Virus record (IMG/VR): IMGVR_UViG_3300027771_000048
Span: 1 to 34,091 of that record
Length of the DNA: 34,091 nucleotides
Direction: 5' to 3' (one strand)
DNA from: a virus
Within the stretch, counting starts at the first letter, position 1; each line of letters starts with the position of its first letter. A program made the translations under genes and the position numbers. The notes under the pieces were generated by a model. The model searched no databases. It had not been told where the DNA came from and was given only the letters and a program-made list of their open reading frames with translations. This document shows positions 3,149 to 24,400 of the stretch, piece after piece.

Positions 3149-3331
3149 TTACTCCTGGGTAGTTGGTTGGTTGTTGTGATAATTTGCGTTGATTTGGTAT
3201 TCGTCAGTGCCTACTTCGTCAACGAAACCGCTGAGTAGTGCTTGTTGCAGCAACTCGTCAGCGTTCTTTTCAAAGTTAAAGTTGGGCGCTTGTTGCATAT
3301 AAAGTTCGTGTTTGCTTACGATTAGTTTCAT
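3149..3331 (-). CDS. Small acidic protein sharing its start segment with its neighbour (60 aa)
   Basis: The product starts MKLIVSKHELYMQQAPNFNF. The first eight residues and the ribosome region are nearly identical to the upstream 79-aa gene (MKPIVSKH), because a 32-base segment around both starts is duplicated with one mismatch. The rest is acidic and unlike the neighbour. GGAG lies about 8 bases before the ATG at 3331, and the ATG overlaps the previous stop (ATGA). Function unknown. Confidence 0.65.
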   Translation of the reverse strand: MKLIVSKHELYMQQAPNFNFEKNADELLQQALLSGFVDEVGTDEYQINANYHNNQPTTQE

Positions 3332-3567
3332 AAATTCACTCCGGTTCTTCCTTTCCGCCAGTCTATTCGCCGCATTGATATAACTCCTGGCTTAATACCT
3401 ACTTGCCAGGCTGCGTCTTGTATATCGATTAAGCGGACTTTTCTTTGGTCCATTAATTTAAAGGCTATGCCGTATGTGTCCCACTTTTGAAAATGTTGAA
3501 ACGCAACCTTTAGGTCGATTAATGCTTCTTTATTTCTAGTCGGGTGTTTGCTTACGATTGGTTTCAT
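3328..3567 (-). CDS. Small basic protein, possible DNA-binding (79 aa)
   Basis: The start at 3567 (MKPIVSKHPTRNKEALIDLK) is chosen over a longer frame because AGGTGA precedes it and because the downstream gene begins with an almost identical sequence. Residues about 44-66 (VRLIDIQDAAWQVGIKPGVI) have helix-turn-helix-like spacing, and the C-terminus is basic (RRIDWRKGRTG). It overlaps the next gene by 4 bases. No family recognised. Confidence 0.65.
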   Translation of the reverse strand: MKPIVSKHPTRNKEALIDLKVAFQHFQKWDTYGIAFKLMDQRKVRLIDIQDAAWQVGIKPGVISMRRIDWRKGRTGVNL

Positions 3568-3575
3568 AAATTCAC

Positions 3576-3909: not shown

Positions 3910-4593
3910 TTACGCTGCTTTCTTAGCTGCTTTGGGTTTCTGCTTAGCTCCGAACACGTGCGTTGCTGCATGGTCACGCTTCTTGGTGTTCGCAAGCTCG
4001 CCAAGCTCTTTAGACTTTTCTTCCAACACTGCCAACATGTCGTTGAAGTCCATGATCATGTGAGTATGCTCGTAAACTTGCTGCTCTTCGTCGACGCACT
4101 CTTTCTCTGCAAAGAGGAACAGTGGATCGAGGTCTGTCATGTAGTTCATCTCACTGCACATCCACGAGTGGAGCTCATTGAGGATCTGGAAATCATCCAT
4201 GAGGGTTACTTCGACATCTGCCAGCGCTGCTGATGTGATGTTGCCTGCCTGCTCTGCAATTGACTGCGAGAAATCCAAACCATTTGCCATATCTCGCTTT
4301 TTGCCAGAGTTGGCTACCCTGCGGGCTGCCCAACAGCTGTTGTTCATGACCTGTTGCACGAACGAGAGCATGTGCTCTGGCTTCTCAGCCATCTCCGGTG
4401 CTGGAACACCTGATCGCACTGCCTCTATACGCGCTGTCTGTCGTTTTTCTGCGAGATCTAGCATGACGTTTGCAATACGGTTAGCGGATAGTGGTGCGTC
4501 GTTCGAGTCGACCAGGTTGGCGATGGCACCGGTGCGGTTCTTGTTGCTAGACATGTTAGTGATTACGGTATCTATAAAAGTTACATTGTTCAT
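3910..4593 (-). CDS. Unknown 227-aa protein, single-gene unit between terminators
   Basis: The start at 4593 (MNNVTFIDTVITNMSSNKNR) has GGAGG 6 bases upstream; the longer frame to 4638 begins inside the preceding terminator. The protein is mostly helical, with a region LSANRIANVMLDLAEKRQ, an acidic middle with several Cys and Met residues, and a basic Ala/Lys tail (KQKPKAAKKAA). No family recognised. It sits alone between leftward terminators at 3858 and 4638, so it is probably expressed independently or by read-through. It could be a structural or DNA-associated protein, or an accessory cassette; neither can be decided here. Confidence 0.7.
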   Translation of the reverse strand: MNNVTFIDTVITNMSSNKNRTGAIANLVDSNDAPLSANRIANVMLDLAEKRQTARIEAVRSGVPAPEMAEKPEHMLSFVQQVMNNSCWAARRVANSGKKRDMANGLDFSQSIAEQAGNITSAALADVEVTLMDDFQILNELHSWMCSEMNYMTDLDPLFLFAEKECVDEEQQVYEHTHMIMDFNDMLAVLEEKSKELGELANTKKRDHAATHVFGAKQKPKAAKKAA

Positions 4594-4637
4594 AGCGTCC
4601 TCCAGGACAAAAATCCTCAAGCTGAATGCTCGAGACA

Positions 4638-4684
4638 TAAAAAAAACCGACCGATAATCATGTAATGATTATCGAAATCGGCTT
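4638..4684 (-). terminator. Leftward terminator with long palindromic stem
   Basis: The minus strand reads GATAATCAT, loop TAC, ATGATTATC, framed by CCGA and TCGG and followed by eight T. The stem is perfect over 9 pairs but AT-rich. It follows the 56-aa membrane protein gene (stop at 4696) and directly precedes the 227-aa gene, so it may also act as an attenuator. The inner palindrome could alternatively be a protein-binding site. Confidence 0.7.
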
Positions 4685-4695
4685 GGTATCACTGC

Positions 4696-4866
4696 CTAGC
4701 TCTGTACTAGGACTACTACTATCGTTAATAGAATTGCTGCAGCTGGGAGTAATATGATTGTTAAGACAGCCGCTCCTATTGCATCGAATACATCACCGAC
4801 TAAACGAAGCGCGGCTCGTTGTTCGTGGCTCGGGAATTCGCGTTCATCACTTTTATGAATTTGCAT
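4696..4866 (-). CDS. Small membrane protein (56 aa)
   Basis: The start at 4866 (MQIHKSDEREFPSHEQRAAL) has GGAGG 9 bases upstream. The same frame stays open far upstream, but there it overlaps the better-supported 107-aa gene, so the short form is preferred. Residues about 27-53 form one strongly hydrophobic segment (AAVLTIILLPAAAILLTIVV). The N-terminal motif DEREFPSHxQRAALRxVG is shared with the neighbouring upstream gene, owing to a duplicated DNA segment. It could be a small inner-membrane protein such as a holin-like or superinfection factor; no evidence decides this. Confidence 0.65.
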   Translation of the reverse strand: MQIHKSDEREFPSHEQRAALRLVGDVFDAIGAAVLTIILLPAAAILLTIVVVLVQS

Positions 4867-5176
4867 TTGTATATACCTCCATACCATGTGCAAAACGAAT
4901 CGCGTTGATCCATTTATTGAGCTTGTAACGCTCTTTGTGGCAAGCATTGCCGATGGTGTCTTTAGCGGTGTACGGGCGCTTTTCGCCATGCTCTCTGAAG
5001 ATAGTCCAAGCACGGTCATCCACATGCCTGTCAACATTTCCGGTGTATCCAACGTGGAAGCCCTCTGGGAGAAAATCACATAGTTGATCAAACTTGTCGT
5101 TTGCTCGTTCAACGCTGCCAACTCTACGAAGCGCGGCTCGTTGTACGTGGCTTGGGAATTCGCGTTCATCGTTCAT
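4853..5176 (-). CDS. Unknown 107-aa protein with REFPSH N-terminal motif
   Basis: The start at 5176 (MNDEREFPSHVQRAALRRVG) overlaps the preceding stop (TGATG) and has AGGAG 7 bases upstream; a GTG one codon earlier is less likely. The N-terminal DEREFPSHVQRAALR is nearly the same as in the downstream membrane protein gene. The rest (for example FDQLCDFLPEGFHVGYTG and AWTIFREHGEKRPYTAKDTI) is soluble and mixed in charge. No known family recognised. It overlaps the next gene by 14 bases. Confidence 0.65.
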   Translation of the reverse strand: MNDEREFPSHVQRAALRRVGSVERANDKFDQLCDFLPEGFHVGYTGNVDRHVDDRAWTIFREHGEKRPYTAKDTIGNACHKERYKLNKWINAIRFAHGMEVYTNANS

Positions 5177-5346
5177 CACTGGACTCCTGCTAGTTCGTTA
5201 TAGTTCCACGGAGCGTCTTGCTCTTCGTCATTGGTGTATGAATCACAGATATCGGTTAGGTCTGCGTTAGTAAAGTCAAATGCAGATGGTTCGTGGTTCA
5301 CGGTTAACATGTCCCAACGATCTGCATTAAGGTTAATTGCTTGCAT
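5176..5346 (-). CDS. Small acidic protein, first of a three-gene leftward unit (56 aa)
   Basis: The start at 5346 (MQAINLNADRWDMLTVNHEP) has a strong AGGAGG site 7 bases upstream and lies just behind the palindromic promoter/operator at 5367-5383. The protein is acidic, with NDEEQDAPWNYNE near its end, and has no membrane segment. Its stop overlaps the next start (TGATG). Not recognised. Confidence 0.7.
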   Translation of the reverse strand: MQAINLNADRWDMLTVNHEPSAFDFTNADLTDICDSYTNDEEQDAPWNYNELAGVQ

Positions 5347-5398: not shown

Positions 5399-5401
5399 TG
5401 T

Positions 5402-5446
5402 ACTTATTCATAAGACAAACCGACCGATTACCGCGTAGCGGTCATC
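5402..5446 (-). terminator. Possible leftward terminator, relative of the one at 4638
   Basis: The minus strand reads GATGACCGC, loop TAC, GCGGTAATC (one mismatch), then GGTCGGTTTGTCTT. The TAC loop and GGTCGGTTT tail match the 4638 terminator, but the T-run is broken. It would insulate the promoter at 5367-5398 from leftward transcription entering through the iteron region. Confidence 0.45.
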
Positions 5447-5493
5447 GTGATTCGTGGTTCACGGTTAGTGGACATAGTGGGCGTGATTTTGGA

Positions 5494-5798
5494 ATGTGTG
5501 CGCTTAACAGGGGATGTGTGCGCAGTGTGTGCGCAAATGTGTGCGCACTTTGAAACAGTAAAAAGTCAGCAACCATGCGGGTTCTAGAGATGTGTGCTGT
5601 GTGTGCGCACTTATTTTGATCAAAGTTCGATTTGAAAAATAAAAGGGGTATGTCAATTAGATCTGTAAACGAACTTGAAAAAGCCAGCACACAGCGCACA
5701 CAGCGCACACATTTACGTAAGTCATTGATAACGTTAACAATTGTGTGTGCGCGAATTGGGTTATGAAGTGCGCACACATTTTTCAAAGTGCGCACACA
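5494..5798. repeat. Iteron-like array of TGTGTGCGC, candidate replication or partition site
   Basis: Ten copies of the 9-mer TGTGTGCGC occur in about 305 bases. Plus-strand copies start at 5495, 5515, 5526, 5538, 5600 and 5744; minus-strand copies at 5694, 5703, 5770 and 5790. Partial copies are at 5591 and 5687. Several extend to the palindrome GTGCGCAC. Copies at 5495/5515 and 5770/5790 are each 20 bases apart, about two helical turns. The copies flank an AT-rich core at about 5610-5680. The stretch 5347-5821 has no credible gene. Clustered short repeats around an AT-rich core are the hallmark of iteron origins, partition sites or dense regulator-binding regions. Confidence 0.7.
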
Positions 5799-5821
5799 CC
5801 TGTTCAGCCGCCGAGCGCGGG

Positions 5822-5929
5822 TCATAGTCGCCGAGCCACAGCATCGTGGGCCTTGAACCGTGAATCGCGGTCCGTGTATCCCGCACGTTGAAAGTAAGCG
5901 TACCAATATTGATATGTAAACTTTTTCAT
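5822..5929 (-). CDS. Very small basic aromatic protein (35 aa)
   Basis: Read directly from the minus strand. The ATG at 5929 has GGAG 7 bases upstream. The product starts MKKFTYQYWYAYFQRAGYTD and ends AVARRL; it is rich in Tyr, Phe, Arg and Lys, with no Cys or membrane segment. A longer overlapping frame (5442-5966) is rejected because it merely translates the repeat array. The gene lies between the iteron array and a strong terminator at 5964. Function unknown. Confidence 0.5.
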   Translation of the reverse strand: MKKFTYQYWYAYFQRAGYTDRDSRFKAHDAVARRL

Positions 5930-5963
5930 GGGTTATCTCCATTCGTTGTTTATGAGTCGTACA

Positions 5964-5999
5964 CAAAAAAACCCGACTCGCGAAGCGCGGGTCGGGTTC
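5964..5999 (-). terminator. Leftward rho-independent terminator
   Basis: The minus strand reads AACCCGAC, then CGCG, loop CTT, CGCG, GTCGGGTT, followed by a T-run. A strong GC-rich stem just downstream of the 63-aa gene ending at 6024. Confidence 0.85.
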
Positions 6000-6000
6000 A

Positions 6001-6023
6001 TGGTTCGTGGTTCGTAGTTCGTG
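6001..6023. repeat. GTTCGTGG short-repeat cluster
   Basis: Three close GTTCGTG/GTTCGTA units in 23 bases. Related GGTTCGTGGTTCACGGTTA copies lie at 5288-5306 and 5451-5467, with weaker relatives at about 4820 and 5140. They lie next to terminators or within small genes. Confidence 0.5.
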
Positions 6024-6215
6024 TTACGCGGTGTACGATTCCCAGCCCGCGAGACTGACTTTGCCTTTCTTGGCCATGATGCCTTTGCATACTTGCATGG
6101 CTGCTTTGCGAGAATGAACGTGCATGAACCAGCGTTCGTTCTTCTTGTTAGTGCCGATGATGATTGTCTTGTCGTTGCTCGGCGAACATACGTTCTTGAA
6201 AGTTACTGTCTTCAT
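6024..6215 (-). CDS. Small basic protein, unknown function (63 aa)
   Basis: The product starts MKTVTFKNVCSPSNDKTIII and continues through an ERWFMHVHSRKAAMQVCKG stretch. It looks like a β-strand followed by a helix and is basic, which would fit nucleic-acid binding, but no family is recognised. AAGGAG lies 7 bases before the ATG at 6215. That ATG abuts the stop of the 71-aa gene. A strong terminator follows. Confidence 0.7.
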   Translation of the reverse strand: MKTVTFKNVCSPSNDKTIIIGTNKKNERWFMHVHSRKAAMQVCKGIMAKKGKVSLAGWESYTA

Positions 6216-6662: not shown

Positions 6663-7139
6663 ATGGCCTACATGGCCAAAGTTAAGACGTGTAAAAAATG
6701 TGGTATGACCGACGAGAGTAGTCATTTTGACCACGGGCGTTTAACCTGCACCCCCTGCCGTATACAAGAAAAGCAAATCAGTACATCCGCCACATACGAA
6801 GCGTACCTCCTACATCTATTCGTGAACGCGAGGTCTAAGGTTAGCCACGGACAGCGGACCAGGACTCTTGCTTTTACAATCACACATGCAGACCTAGTAA
6901 CGCTTTGGCAGCGACAAGAAGGGAAGTGCGCGATATCCGGTGTGTTTCTCACGCACCATAAAGATGGGTCAGGCACCAAAGATTTCAACGCCTCTATCGA
7001 TCGGATATCGAACGCGAAGGATTACACCCCCGACAACATCCAATTAGTGGCATATCGTATTAACTTAATGAAACACACGCTGTCTGAAGACCTTTTTTAC
7101 TGGTGGATCAAGACAATTCACGATTCTTCTTGTGATTAA
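6663..7139 (+). CDS. HNH endonuclease-like protein with N-terminal zinc finger
   Basis: A 158-residue protein. Residues 10-32 carry CxxC-x15-CxxC (C10, C13, C29, C32), a zinc finger. The C-terminal half carries an HNH-like ββα region: CAISGVF (C89), then FNASIDRI (D113), YTPDNIQLV (N125) and YRINLMKH (N134). SIDRI...DNIQLV is typical of HNH nucleases in phages. HNH proteins next to terminase genes often help DNA packaging (HK97 gp74 is the known example), but a free-standing homing-type nuclease is also possible. No ribosome site precedes 6663; the second ATG at 6672 would suit a leaderless transcript from the -10 at 6657. Confidence 0.8.
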   Translation: MAYMAKVKTCKKCGMTDESSHFDHGRLTCTPCRIQEKQISTSATYEAYLLHLFVNARSKVSHGQRTRTLAFTITHADLVTLWQRQEGKCAISGVFLTHHKDGSGTKDFNASIDRISNAKDYTPDNIQLVAYRINLMKHTLSEDLFYWWIKTIHDSSCD

Positions 7140-7165: not shown

Positions 7166-7432
7166 ATGGACGAGATTGAAGTTCTAGCGTTAAGTGGCCT
7201 AGATGAGGCGATTGTAGGGACAACCTTGCGGAACGATCGTGAGGTGCTCGCTTATAACTACGATATAGCCGTAGCCATAATTATGGCAAAGGGGCATACA
7301 GAAGAGTATGCAGAAGACTGGATAGCAGAAGTGTCGTCAGACAAGTTCGATGGCGCCCCTGCATTCGTGTATTTCGATAACCACCAAGAGCACTATGGAA
7401 ATAGCCCCCCAGCTGGAATCACAGTCCACTGA
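7166..7432 (+). CDS. Small acidic protein upstream of terminase (88 aa)
   Basis: The product starts MDEIEVLALSGLDEAIVGTT, is acidic and has no Cys cluster or membrane segment. No ribosome site is visible; the ATG is immediately downstream of promoter/operator site 2, which suggests leaderless translation. Its 3' end overlaps the terminase small-subunit gene by 38 bases. Small acidic genes at this position occur in many phages, but I cannot assign a function. Confidence 0.65.
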   Translation: MDEIEVLALSGLDEAIVGTTLRNDREVLAYNYDIAVAIIMAKGHTEEYAEDWIAEVSSDKFDGAPAFVYFDNHQEHYGNSPPAGITVH

Positions 7433-7910
7433 CTTAGTTAGTGAACATACCGAATTCCAATCGCATATGCCGTACATGGGCATTAGCCGTGGATCACTAA
7501 CCATGCAGCAAGAAAAGCTGGTCTCGCTCATTAGTTCGGGTATGACCACAGCGGCTGCGGGTCGCGGTGCAGGATACTCGTCGCCCCAGGCCACCTATGC
7601 GGCTGCAAAAGTCCCAGATGTCCAGCAAGCGATCGAATATTTCCGCCAGGAGATGCGTGAAGAGGTGAAGTTCACCAATCAGCACGCGCACATGATGTAC
7701 ATGGAAGCCTATAACACCTCAGCGAACGCCACTGAGATGAAGAACACCACCGATTCCCTGGTCAAGCTGCACGGTTTGGCTGCACCAGAAAACGCTACCC
7801 AAGTGAATATCAACATTAACGGCACTAAGCAGCTCGAGCGCATGAGTGACGAAGACCTGTTGAAGATCGCGGGTAAAGACCTCGACTACCTCGAACCTAA
7901 GAGTGATTAA
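7395..7910 (+). CDS. terS: Terminase small subunit
   Basis: A 171-residue protein that would recognise the phage pac or cos site and hand DNA to the large subunit. Residues about 36-72 (LTMQQEKLVSLISSGMTTAA, then GAGYSSPQATYAAA) form a helix-turn-helix of the type seen at the N-terminus of small terminases. The middle is helical (oligomerisation core), and the acidic C-terminal tail ends DLDYLEPKSD. The ATG at 7395 is preferred over the upstream 7350 start, although its ribosome site (AAGAG) is weak. Position ahead of the large subunit supports the call; three small genes intervene. Confidence 0.75.
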   Translation: MEIAPQLESQSTDLVSEHTEFQSHMPYMGISRGSLTMQQEKLVSLISSGMTTAAAGRGAGYSSPQATYAAAKVPDVQQAIEYFRQEMREEVKFTNQHAHMMYMEAYNTSANATEMKNTTDSLVKLHGLAAPENATQVNININGTKQLERMSDEDLLKIAGKDLDYLEPKSD

Positions 7911-8043: not shown

Positions 8044-8568
8044 ATGCCAGCCCCTTTAGCAATAGCCGCCTATCAGGGCGGAGCAGCAGTAGCTAGATAT
8101 GTAGCAACACACGGCGTGAAGAAAGCCGCAGAAAAATATGGCAAAGCGGCATTAAAGAAGGTGGCAACTAAGAAAGCGGCTGGAAGTGCTGCGATCAGAA
8201 CGGCCCTCGTATCAGGTGAAGGCGCTGCTGTAAAAGCGGTCAATAATCGAAGGGCGAAAGCTAATCCAGGTAAGAAGAAAGTGGACGAGAATAAAGCAAA
8301 CTTAGTAGCGACTGCCGAACAAAAGACTCAAGAATCATTCCATCGCGCTGCAAAACAAAAAGCTGACGAGAAACGCCGAAAGGCCGCTAAGAAGCCTGCC
8401 GCTAAGAAGCCTGCCGCTAAGAAGCCTGCCGCTAAGAAGCCTGCCGCTAAGAAGCCTGCAGCAAAGAGAGAGCCCAGCATTTCAGTAAAGAAGAACAAGA
8501 CACCCCTTCTCACAAAGATCGGAAGAGTAAGAGACAAGGTCTATAAGCCTGTTAATCAGAGGAAGTAA
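8044..8568 (+). CDS. Histone H1-like Lys/Ala-rich protein (174 aa)
   Basis: A strongly basic, low-complexity protein. The N-terminal part (about 1-75) is Ala/Lys-rich and may be helical. Residues about 113-140 consist of a PAAKK repeat encoded by five 15-base units, as in H1-like tails. The C-terminal part remains basic (SVKKNKTPLLTKIG). Such tails bind DNA through charge, and together with its place between the terminase subunits this suggests DNA condensation or packaging. No enzyme motif. GAGGAAG at 6-8 bases upstream is its ribosome site. Confidence 0.7.
   Translation: MPAPLAIAAYQGGAAVARYVATHGVKKAAEKYGKAALKKVATKKAAGSAAIRTALVSGEGAAVKAVNNRRAKANPGKKKVDENKANLVATAEQKTQESFHRAAKQKADEKRRKAAKKPAAKKPAAKKPAAKKPAAKKPAAKREPSISVKKNKTPLLTKIGRVRDKVYKPVNQRK
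8386..8460 (+). repeat. Five tandem 15-base repeats encoding AKKPA
   Basis: The unit GCTAAGAAGCCTGCC is repeated five times without change except for the last base. It lies in frame within the H1-like gene. Identity at synonymous positions points to recent expansion by slippage or recombination. Confidence 0.9.
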
Positions 8569-14533: not shown

Positions 14534-15688
14534 ATGGCCTTAACAAATTTCGGTACGCTCTCGGGCGACCAACTTCAAACTTGGAGTCGCGACTTCTGGA
14601 AAGTAGCTCGCAACCAATCATTCATCAACCAATTCGCAGGTACTGGCTCAAACGCTATGGTACAACGCGTAACTGAGATGACCAAAAACAACAAAGGCAC
14701 CAAGGCTAACATTACTTTGCTTGCCGATATGACTGGCGACGGTATCACTGGTGATTACACTCTGGAAGGCAACGAAGAAGCCCTCCGCGCGTATGACATC
14801 AGTATCGAGCTTGATCAGCTACGTTTCGCTAACCGCATCGCTGGCCGAATGACTGACCAGAAGACTGTTGTTAACTTCCGTGAGCAATCTCGCGACGCAC
14901 TTGCTTATGCAATGGCTGACCGTTGTGATCAGTTGGCATTCTTAACTCTGTCAGGTGTTGCTTACACTAATAAGAACAACGGCGCATTACGTACTGTTGT
15001 TGGTGGCGCTGTAAACGGCCAAGAACTTGTTGACCTCTCTTATGCGTCTGACGTATCTGCTCCTACAGCTGCTCGTCACCGTCGTTGGGATGCTACTGGC
15101 GGTCTTACAACTGGTGCTACTAACGCAGTAGCCGCAGTTGATAAGATTAGCTACGAGTGTATCGTTAACCTGAAAGCCTACGCTAAAGACCAGTATATTC
15201 GTGGTATTCGCGGTGCGGGTAACCAGGAAACTTTCCACATGTTTGTTACTCCACAGCAGATGGCTGACCTGAAACTCGATGCGAGCTTCTTGGCTAACGT
15301 TCGTAACGCCGGTGTACGCGGTACTTCGAACAGCTTGTTCAGCGGTTCTTCTAGCCTGATGGTTGACGGCGTAATGATCCACGAGTTCCGTCATGTGTTT
15401 AACACGTCTGGCGCTACTTCCGGTTCTAGCGGCAACGCTGGAGCAGCTGGATACAAGTGGGGTGCTAATGCAGACGTAAACGGAGCGCGCGCTTTGTTCT
15501 GCGGAGCACAGGCTCTAGCCCTAGCTGACATTGGTCTGCCTGAGATGGTTGAAGATACTTTCGACTACGGTAACCAGTCTGGTATTTCAGTAGGCAAGAT
15601 CTTCGGAATGCGCAAGCCTAAGTACAACAGTGATATCACTGGTGACGTACAGGACTTCGGCGTTATCTGTTTAGATACTGCACAGTAA
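14534..15688 (+). CDS. Major capsid protein, N4-gp56 type
   Basis: A 384-residue HK97-fold shell protein. The start at 14534 (MALTNFGTLSGDQLQTWSRD) has GGAG 6 bases upstream; a longer frame from 14486 lies in the leader and is rejected. Family features include RDFWKVARNQSFINQFAG, an E-loop-like region (ITLLADMTGDGITGDYTL), the long helix FREQSRDALAYAMADRCDQL, and the C-terminal PEMVEDTFDYGNQSGISVGK followed by KIFGMRKPKYNS. These match the N4-gp56 major capsid family. It is a single-gene unit with its own promoter, leader and terminator, which fits very high expression. Confidence 0.9.
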   Translation: MALTNFGTLSGDQLQTWSRDFWKVARNQSFINQFAGTGSNAMVQRVTEMTKNNKGTKANITLLADMTGDGITGDYTLEGNEEALRAYDISIELDQLRFANRIAGRMTDQKTVVNFREQSRDALAYAMADRCDQLAFLTLSGVAYTNKNNGALRTVVGGAVNGQELVDLSYASDVSAPTAARHRRWDATGGLTTGATNAVAAVDKISYECIVNLKAYAKDQYIRGIRGAGNQETFHMFVTPQQMADLKLDASFLANVRNAGVRGTSNSLFSGSSSLMVDGVMIHEFRHVFNTSGATSGSSGNAGAAGYKWGANADVNGARALFCGAQALALADIGLPEMVEDTFDYGNQSGISVGKIFGMRKPKYNSDITGDVQDFGVICLDTAQ

Positions 15689-21498: not shown

Positions 21499-24400
21499 GT
21501 GTTACAGGGTTACGCAGCAAATTTACAAGCCCCGATGCTCGATAAAGAGTCATCGGGCGACTATTCGGCTATCAACCAGTTGGGGTATGTTGGCGGATAT
21601 CAGTTTGGTGCATCGGCACTAGAAACACTAGGTTATTTAAAGTCTGGGAGTTCTAGTGCGGGTAACAAATCTGCTATGAATAACCCCGCAAATTGGACTG
21701 GAAAAAGCGGCGTTTCTAGTCTTCAAGATTTCTTACAAAACACTGATGTGCAAGATGCCGCCTTCCAAGAGAATGTAGATTTTAATCTCAAGTCTTTAAA
21801 GCAAAGGGGTACGGTCGACGCGTCTACATCAGACGACAAGATTATGGGGCTATTAGCGGCGTCCCATCTATTGGGAGCGGGTGGCGCTTCGAACGATTTG
21901 TCGGGAACTGATGCAAATGGAACGTCAGGCCAAGACTATTACAATATCGGTTTTGCGGCTTACACCCCAACTAACGGATCTACAAACGATGCAGTGGAAC
22001 AGTTTTTCTCATCGAGAATCACAGGCGTCACACAATCTAACCCAACACCCGCAGGCGCACAAGATGATGCAGTAGCGCAATTTTTTACAAAAAGACTCGT
22101 AGCTCCTGCTGCTAAACCAGCGCCAGCGCCAGCACCAATGCAAGCTCCGGTAGACTCAGCAACGGCGGTTATGAACGCCGCCTACAATACCAGCTCTCCG
22201 AACGATGCTGTAATGGCGCAAGCATATAACACTGGGTTCGACGGACCTATTACGGGGGCCAACGTAGGTTCTGTTATTACTACTCCACTTGACCCACTAC
22301 CGAGTGATGATCTAGTAACAACCTTTCGCCGTGGCGTTACCTCGGGCGCTGAAGGAGTAGCGGCTGACTTAAATTATATGGGCGCCGCGTGGAGCGCGCT
22401 TTTTGGCGATGAGCAGGGCGTAGCTGACTCTATTGAAAATGCGCGTATCCAAGAAGAATTCGCGGGTATCCCATTAGCAGGGATGAAAAAATTTAGTGAG
22501 GTTCTTGATGAACCGACGTTCGAAGGCGTGCTTGACCAAATTACAGTGGGCGTAGGGCAGCTAGTCCCTAGCGTAATTAGCGCGATCACAGGTGCTGGTA
22601 TTGGCAGCGTGACGATGTTGGCAGGGAAGCAGGTTCTTACGCAGTCGACCCGCCAAGCCGCCAAGAGCATCATCAAAGACTCTTTAAATGCTACTGCAAA
22701 AAAGACCGCTACCCCCGATCAACGTGCTATTGCGCAGGCAGCTTTTGAAGCTACAAAAGAAGCGCATGTACTTACTAGAAACCGCTACCTACGTAACAAA
22801 ACTGCTAAGCAGGGCGCCCTACTTGGCGCAGGGCTATCCGAATATGCACCATTAACGGGATCTAATGTTAGTGAAGCACTTGAGTCAGGGCGTGAGTTAG
22901 ATAGAACGCAAGCGATGAGAGCAGGATTAGTAGCTTTACCGCAAGCAGCGATCGGGGTCTTTGGCGAGGCTGGACTATTAAGCCTGATAAGCAGACAGGC
23001 TAGCAAGAAATCAGCTGGCCCTAAGTCTGTTATGGGCAGGCTAGCGGCTGCGACCGGCACGGGTTTTGTAAAAGGCGGCGTGTTAGAGGGAGCCGCAGAA
23101 CTAGCTCAAGAAGAACTCGCGATCCGTAACCGTATGGATATGGATGCCACATTCACCGACGCTGACGCTAATCTCCGTCGTATCCAAGCAGGCTTTATTG
23201 GATTCTTTGGTGGCGCAGCAGCGGGTGGCGGAGGCTCGGGACTCGTGCAAGCTGCTAATGAAATACCTGGTGGCGTCGTTAGTACCGTCGCCGCCGTAAC
23301 TGAAAAAGCGGCAGAGATGTCAGACTCTATCAAAGAGTTCATGACCCGTTCGCAAGCGAGTAGTGAGATATCTAGGATTGCTCCAGGGCAGACTACTCAG
23401 GAGTCTAAGCGCGACATAGACGCTCAAGTCAACGCGATGATCGACCCCAGTAGTTCTAAAGAAGCCGTATGGATAAGTGGCACTACGCCGGACCCTCGGT
23501 ATGCCAGCGGTAGTGGCCGTATCAAAAAAGTTATTATAAACGGGTCTCGTGCGTACTCCGCTTTTGTTCCTGGTCGAGGCACCATAATTTCCACTGATGT
23601 CGACATTGTCGAAAACGTGATTAAGGGAGAAGCGTCTGATGCGGTTCTTGCTGCAGCGTTAGGCTACAGTTCGGTTAAGACGGGCACTGAGAGTGATGTC
23701 TTCAGGGTTTACGACGCGGAGGGGGGCATTATCTCAGAGCAGGTGGTCAGCCGCGATGGTGACGAGATTATCGCAGCGCGTGCTGCCGCCGAAAAGCTAA
23801 TGCCTAAAGGTGGGCGCATCGAGTTTATGCCAGTCGAAGATGCCCTTGCTGACCGCGCGCGCCGAGCAGAACCTGATGTTAAATTTATGGACGACGACGT
23901 CGATCCCCTTGAACAAGACCAGACTCCAAACGAAAGAGACGCTGATCAAGAATTCGAGCCGGAAGTTCGTACACATTCATTTACCCAAGGCGGTAAGACC
24001 ACTGAAACTTACCAAGCGGTAGAGGGCGACAATAGCTTCGATGGTATAGAAGCGGCGAGGGCAGCTTACGCGGATATGCTCGGGTTCGCTGTCGATTTCA
24101 CTACTAATTTCTACAAACGCATGTCTAAAAGCATGCTTAACACTGCTGTGTCGTTACAAAAAGCCAACCCAGATGAAGTAGTACAGGTCGCGATCAACAG
24201 CGATGGCTCTTATCGTATTGACATAGAGACTACTCCTGATACACAGAAAATAAGAATCCGCGATAAAAAAGGTATTGAAGACGAAGTCTCGATGTCAGAG
24301 TTTTTACGCAGATCAATTAGTAAAGCTGCTAGTAGTATCCAAAAGTTTCGCACTATAAATATTACAGCTCCAGGCGCCGATGCAGCTATTAGCGTCAACC

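Follow-up and report, generated by a model that had tools for sequence, protein, structure and literature searches.

Ten copies of a 9-bp repeat, TGTGTGCGC, in the window (the whole 34,091-nt stretch of phage DNA analyzed here) most likely mark the start of replication in a family of temperate marine phages. Among relatives, the spacing and direction of the sites are kept while the sites themselves change jointly, which we read as the trace, left in nature, of coordinated change in a DNA-binding protein and its target. Under the resulting hypothesis, the array serves a temperate phage as its replication origin, and the phage's own DUF5906 primase-helicase, encoded approximately 8–18 kb to the left, beyond the window, would bind the ten iterons via its winged helix, assemble on both sides of an AT-rich core, open this core, and prime replication where the two gene arms meet. 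The nearly fixed TGTG half of each unit would be read by the helix and the last four bases by the wing; changes in the wing would accompany replacement of the unit in all slots, and the slots would persist because they position the helicase. Taken as a whole, this reading appears probable to us. All support comes from sequence, mostly that of metagenome contigs, from which we infer binding, melting, the start of replication at this site, and the presence of the same initiator in the window's own phage.

Within the window, exact TGTGTGCGC occurs ten times, exclusively between positions 5495 and 5798, compared to a mean of 0.37 and a maximum of 3 copies in dinucleotide-preserving shuffles. Five plus-strand units (5495–5503, 5515–5523, 5526–5534, 5538–5546, and 5600–5608) are separated by the AT-rich core, the candidate melting site (5609–5693, 68% AT), from units 6 and 7 on the minus strand (5694–5702 and 5703–5711), unit 8 on the plus strand (5744–5752), and units 9 and 10, again on the minus strand (5770–5778 and 5790–5798). 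All ten are exact matches, and the slot of unit 1 is retained in relatives. An earlier sequence-only reading of this DNA had described a ten-copy array with six plus- and four minus-strand copies, two pairs exactly 20 bp apart (5495/5515 and 5770/5790), and an AT-rich stretch between the groups, all of which is borne out. Its further statement that no gene covers the array holds for conserved genes: the only long frame crossing it (5442–5966, minus strand, TTG start) consists largely of repeats and was not seen preserved as a gene in any relative. The pattern of iteron plasmids, i.e., evenly spaced direct iterons accompanied by DnaA boxes, was not found here, as orientations are mixed, gaps are uneven, and the DnaA-box motif TTWTNCACA is absent from 5400–5900. 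An RNA element or tRNA was rejected, as neither an Rfam nor a tRNA match was obtained. No similar DNA was found in annotated phages.

The genomic position of the array is consistent with an origin as well: the intergenic region that holds it (5441–5920) lies between a leftward early arm and a rightward arm with terminase and virion genes, and is the sole point at which the two arms diverge. The AT-skew minimum coincides with the array, where the arms part. GC skew, which had been suggested as a check, tracks the coding strand and thus lends no independent support to an origin. The window encodes terminase, portal, capsid, tail fibre, holin, and endolysin; the neighborhood of the array includes an HNH/endonuclease VII-like gene in the rightward arm (6663–7139, plus strand) and the first larger gene of the leftward arm (3910–4638, minus strand), which is kept in relatives and has no family match. 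The product of the latter was rejected as a reader of the array: its model is of low confidence (mean pLDDT 71), and the leading fold matches are without a DNA-binding fold. Further repeats occur in this part of the window. TTCGTGGTTCACGG-like repeats are dispersed around the array (2609–2626, 5287–5306, 5448–5467, and 5998–6037), and near-identical direct repeats of 53 nt (4796–4848 and 5118–5170) and 32 nt (3308–3339 and 3544–3575) lie near gene starts of the leftward arm, which suggests partial gene duplications. Farther right, a basic protein with a repeated AAKKP motif (8044–8568, with 15-nt tandem repeats at 8383–8482) is encoded immediately upstream of the large terminase gene.

The window is a 34-kb fragment, and two relatives with end overlap measure approximately 57.0 and 57.7 kb. 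Because complete relatives are of this size, roughly 20 kb of the window's genome, including the early replication genes, are missing. Genes for an integrase and a CI-like repressor are found in complete relatives, one of which is a prophage; the family is therefore temperate, not lytic. In one genome (G008), a tyrosine integrase gene is accompanied by a leftward arm encoding an HTH_17 protein, a CI-like HTH_3 repressor, a small nuclease/helicase-like protein, a helicase, an exonuclease, a DUF5906/VapE-like primase-helicase, and a family A DNA polymerase. A chromosomal prophage of Motiliproteus coralliicola C34 shares most of this gene set; its array (G022 contig 5, about 1,396,290–1,396,742) has about ten TTGTGTCA units in a different layout. 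Integrase and integrated copies were thus both found, in relatives only. The description of the window as a “lytic-looking” podovirus is unsupported in the light of these relatives, and with the family temperate, the argument that an iteron origin would be unusual in such a phage no longer applies. In many relatives, the early arm also has genes for a MoxR-type AAA ATPase, DUF2201 (a metallopeptidase together with a VWA-like part), and Nmad5 side by side, as at 14788–17648 of contig L250; considered as possible readers of the array, these three were not found in some array-bearing genomes (G004 and G006).

Comparison across the family reveals that the layout is kept and the unit is switched. 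One contig (L043) is 99.9% identical to the window. Another (L017, the same contig as L212) has the window's array, with 97–99% identity in the array halves, 81% in the core, and 68–80% in nearby non-coding DNA; between the window and L212 or L210, the array is better conserved than its surroundings. In L210, the HNH gene is 98% identical to that of the window and the left arm approximately 40%, marking a sharp mosaic boundary near the array. In more distant relatives, which were collected via the large terminase, TGTGTGCGC arrays are absent, and a different 9-mer is repeated across roughly the same 300-bp stretch that precedes the terminase genes. Among the units seen in relatives are TGTGTGACG in G001 and TGTGTGTCA in G003. 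Other units occupy the window's slots in several relatives when the layout is held fixed and ungapped, and gaps and orientations are preserved when small drift is allowed. For the sequence-only reading, repeats that were missing or rearranged in close relatives would have been counter-evidence; the opposite was found.

A layout finder applied to 386 sequences returned 111 matches, 69 of them distinct, with median gaps of 20-11-12-62-94-9-41-25-20 bp and orientations +++++--+--. These arrays were selected by the true layout, and the fit of 69 out of 69 is thus not an unbiased rate; when gaps and orientations were shuffled, ten such layouts reached the threshold in 0–6 of the 69 (mean 1.4). Roughly 15 further arrays, found by repeat density alone, do not fit the layout, i.e., it is common in the family, not universal. 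The core has a mean AT content of 0.694 over the 69 arrays, compared to 0.526 for their contigs, and is the richer of the two in 68 cases. The unit profile has nearly fixed bases at p3 (T), p4 (G), and p5 (T) and variable ones at p6–p9: TGTG is nearly constant, the last four bases differ between arrays, and 20 distinct p3–p9 strings occur among the 69 (about 20 unit types). The unit changes in concert, affecting nearly all copies of an array at once. Arrays with two unit types were also observed (L366/L381, L133, and L129). L133 contains a single TGTGTGCGC copy in an array of TGTGTGACG units, and in L366 the types differ between the left and the right of the AT-rich core. Such mixed arrays may be intermediates of unit switching or recombinants.

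A reader of these arrays may be provided by the DUF5906 primase-helicase, which is present in relatives complete enough to hold its gene, 8–18 kb to the left of the array; the window ends before this gene. The protein comprises a primase domain, an SF3-type helicase, a VapE-like domain, and a C-terminal winged helix, and matches the primase-polymerase of phage NrS-1 (PDB 6k9c/6k9e) with an E-value of 1e-26. Its last 205 residues were modelled with a winged helix, where pLDDT is about 90; in a fold search with this model NrS-1 ranked first, but matches were weak, with nothing at E ≤ 0.001. Pairing of arrays with initiators yielded 39 usable pairs, in which individual residues follow individual bases of the unit. 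At position 801, R occurs in 25 of 26 xCA types (x not T) and in 1 of the remaining 13; at position 787, Q occurs in 4 of 5 AGCA types and in 0 of the remaining 34; and at position 798, N or H occurs in 21 of 24 types with G at p6 and in 2 of the remaining 15. The plain Fisher p values take no account of kinship. Permutation of the unit labels inside clades gave 0/400 for both 798/p6 and 799/p7, 1 for 805/p6, and 6 for 801/p9; in the wing segment, 2 of 76 tests stood at 0/400, compared to 4 of 4988 elsewhere. The residue rule was spotted by eye in the earlier pairs and then fitted 7 of 8 additional pairs, which include close relatives of the earlier ones. For the window's own phage, whose unit ends in CGC, the rule would lead one to expect something other than R at the equivalent of residue 801. 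The rule is violated at 787, 798, and 801 by one contig (L297), which has an AGCA-type array at its end (20–226) and an initiator wing resembling another type at these three positions; we attribute this mismatch to a mis-joined contig or a recent swap.

In the model, residues 787, 798, and 801 fall in the wing (residues 785–806), and the helix (SQREF) is largely conserved. A variable wing next to a conserved helix would fit units with a variable half and a conserved TGTG half. However, a segment-by-segment distance test over 17 proteins was not decisive and did not single out the winged helix, since segments of the HNH, exonuclease, SNF2, and p233 proteins score about equally or above. The DUF5906 primase-helicase is thus the best candidate for a reader of the array, not a proven one.

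The sequence-only reading had left three options side by side: an origin, a partition site, or a platform for a cooperative regulator. The first is best supported, by iterons flanking an AT-rich core, the divergence of the arms, and the primase-helicase of relatives, and the other two less so. Regulation could nevertheless be combined with an origin, with which it is compatible, if the iteron-binding initiator also repressed or activated the flanking promoters. Initiators of this kind often regulate such promoters, ten sites across 300 bp are more than a minimal origin requires, and the array fills the gap between the arms, but no promoter-like site was detected adjoining it, and we consider this dual role rather unlikely. 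Less likely still is an operator array, in which a repressor or Cro-like protein would bind the ten sites and control the divergent arms, with the unit following immunity type. The location between divergent arms, the temperate lifestyle, and the variable recognition helices of small HTH proteins in some genomes would all suit such a function. However, the recognition helix of the CI-like repressor (WSQGAISHYLNN type) does not change with the putative operator, being the same across genomes with different units, and only 5 of the genomes compared yielded the small Cro-like HTH protein; both were rejected as readers of the array on these grounds. Moreover, the sites are asymmetric and spread across 300 bp with a conserved AT-rich core. 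Partition sites, too, vary between relatives, and the repeats lie in a non-coding region, but the centromere of a plasmid-like prophage is very improbable in a family with integrases and a chromosomally integrated member, and neither ParA nor ParB was among the proteins scanned (a subset of genes). Equally improbable is a packaging (pac) site: the gene for the small terminase that would read it is located approximately 1.6 kb downstream of the array (7350–7910), but this protein is about 85–94% identical between relatives with different units, too conserved to explain the switch, and was dismissed as a reader.

An origin read by a DUF5906 primase-helicase would resemble several known systems. 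The origins of phage-inducible chromosomal islands (PICIs) always consist of two iteron sets around an AT-rich region (PMC6092414), and the SaPI proteins Rep and Cch2 recognize iterons via their C-terminal domain (PMC7581432). Here, too, two iteron sets flank an AT-rich region, the candidate initiator, as found in relatives, is an SF3 helicase/primase, its specificity is predicted to reside in the C-terminal domain, and iterons differ between elements, as they do among PICIs/SaPIs (PMC6092414; PMC7581432). In contrast to these small, helper-dependent satellites, in which the origin lies directly 3' of rep, the phages described here are full temperate phages of about 57 kb with virion genes, the candidate initiator gene of relatives is 8–18 kb away, and about 20 unit types share a nearly fixed layout. 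In P4, the primase-helicase alpha likewise binds origin repeats with a winged helix (summarized in PMC4234260); alpha, however, has a bacterial-type (Toprim) primase, whereas DUF5906 is NrS-1-like, and the comparison does not extend to the P4 origin itself. NrS-1 is a sequence relative over the helicase region (PDB 6k9c, 6k9e), but its 8-nt recognition site is present twice, once per strand, at the genome centre (PMC7102993) instead of in an array of ten. GTG can serve as a priming site for the NrS-1 and pRN1 enzymes (PMC8718748), and one may speculate that the fixed TGTG half might have a second role in priming. For PLE satellites, origin iterons and the DNA-binding domain of RepA covary and must match (PMC8263062), as proposed here; that system has a RepA_N initiator and three iterons of approximately 30 bp in two types, compared to about 20 types in this family. 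The Pseudomonas phage KPP25 group and Aeromonas phage phiA008 possess a related terminase and DUF5906 initiator (29–32% identical), but no comparable array was found at their divergence points (KPP25 record 23756–24083, L576; phiA008 record ends, L572 and L577), and they may use another kind of origin.

How a protein and many copies of its site shift specificity together is a long-standing question, to which this family offers about 20 natural solutions on one scaffold. Wing positions appear to track single bases, and a recognition code could thus be proposed. A tentative extension, to which we give slightly less than even weight, is that the origin repeatedly switches its recognition sequence, ten sites and wing together on a fixed scaffold, and that a given lineage can start replication at no origin but its own, under pressure to avoid cross-talk with resident or co-infecting relatives or to escape origin-directed nucleases. 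If the array is indeed an origin, complete temperate phages would possess a PICI-like origin, and the diversity of units would suggest divergence among relatives as a way of not using one another's origins.
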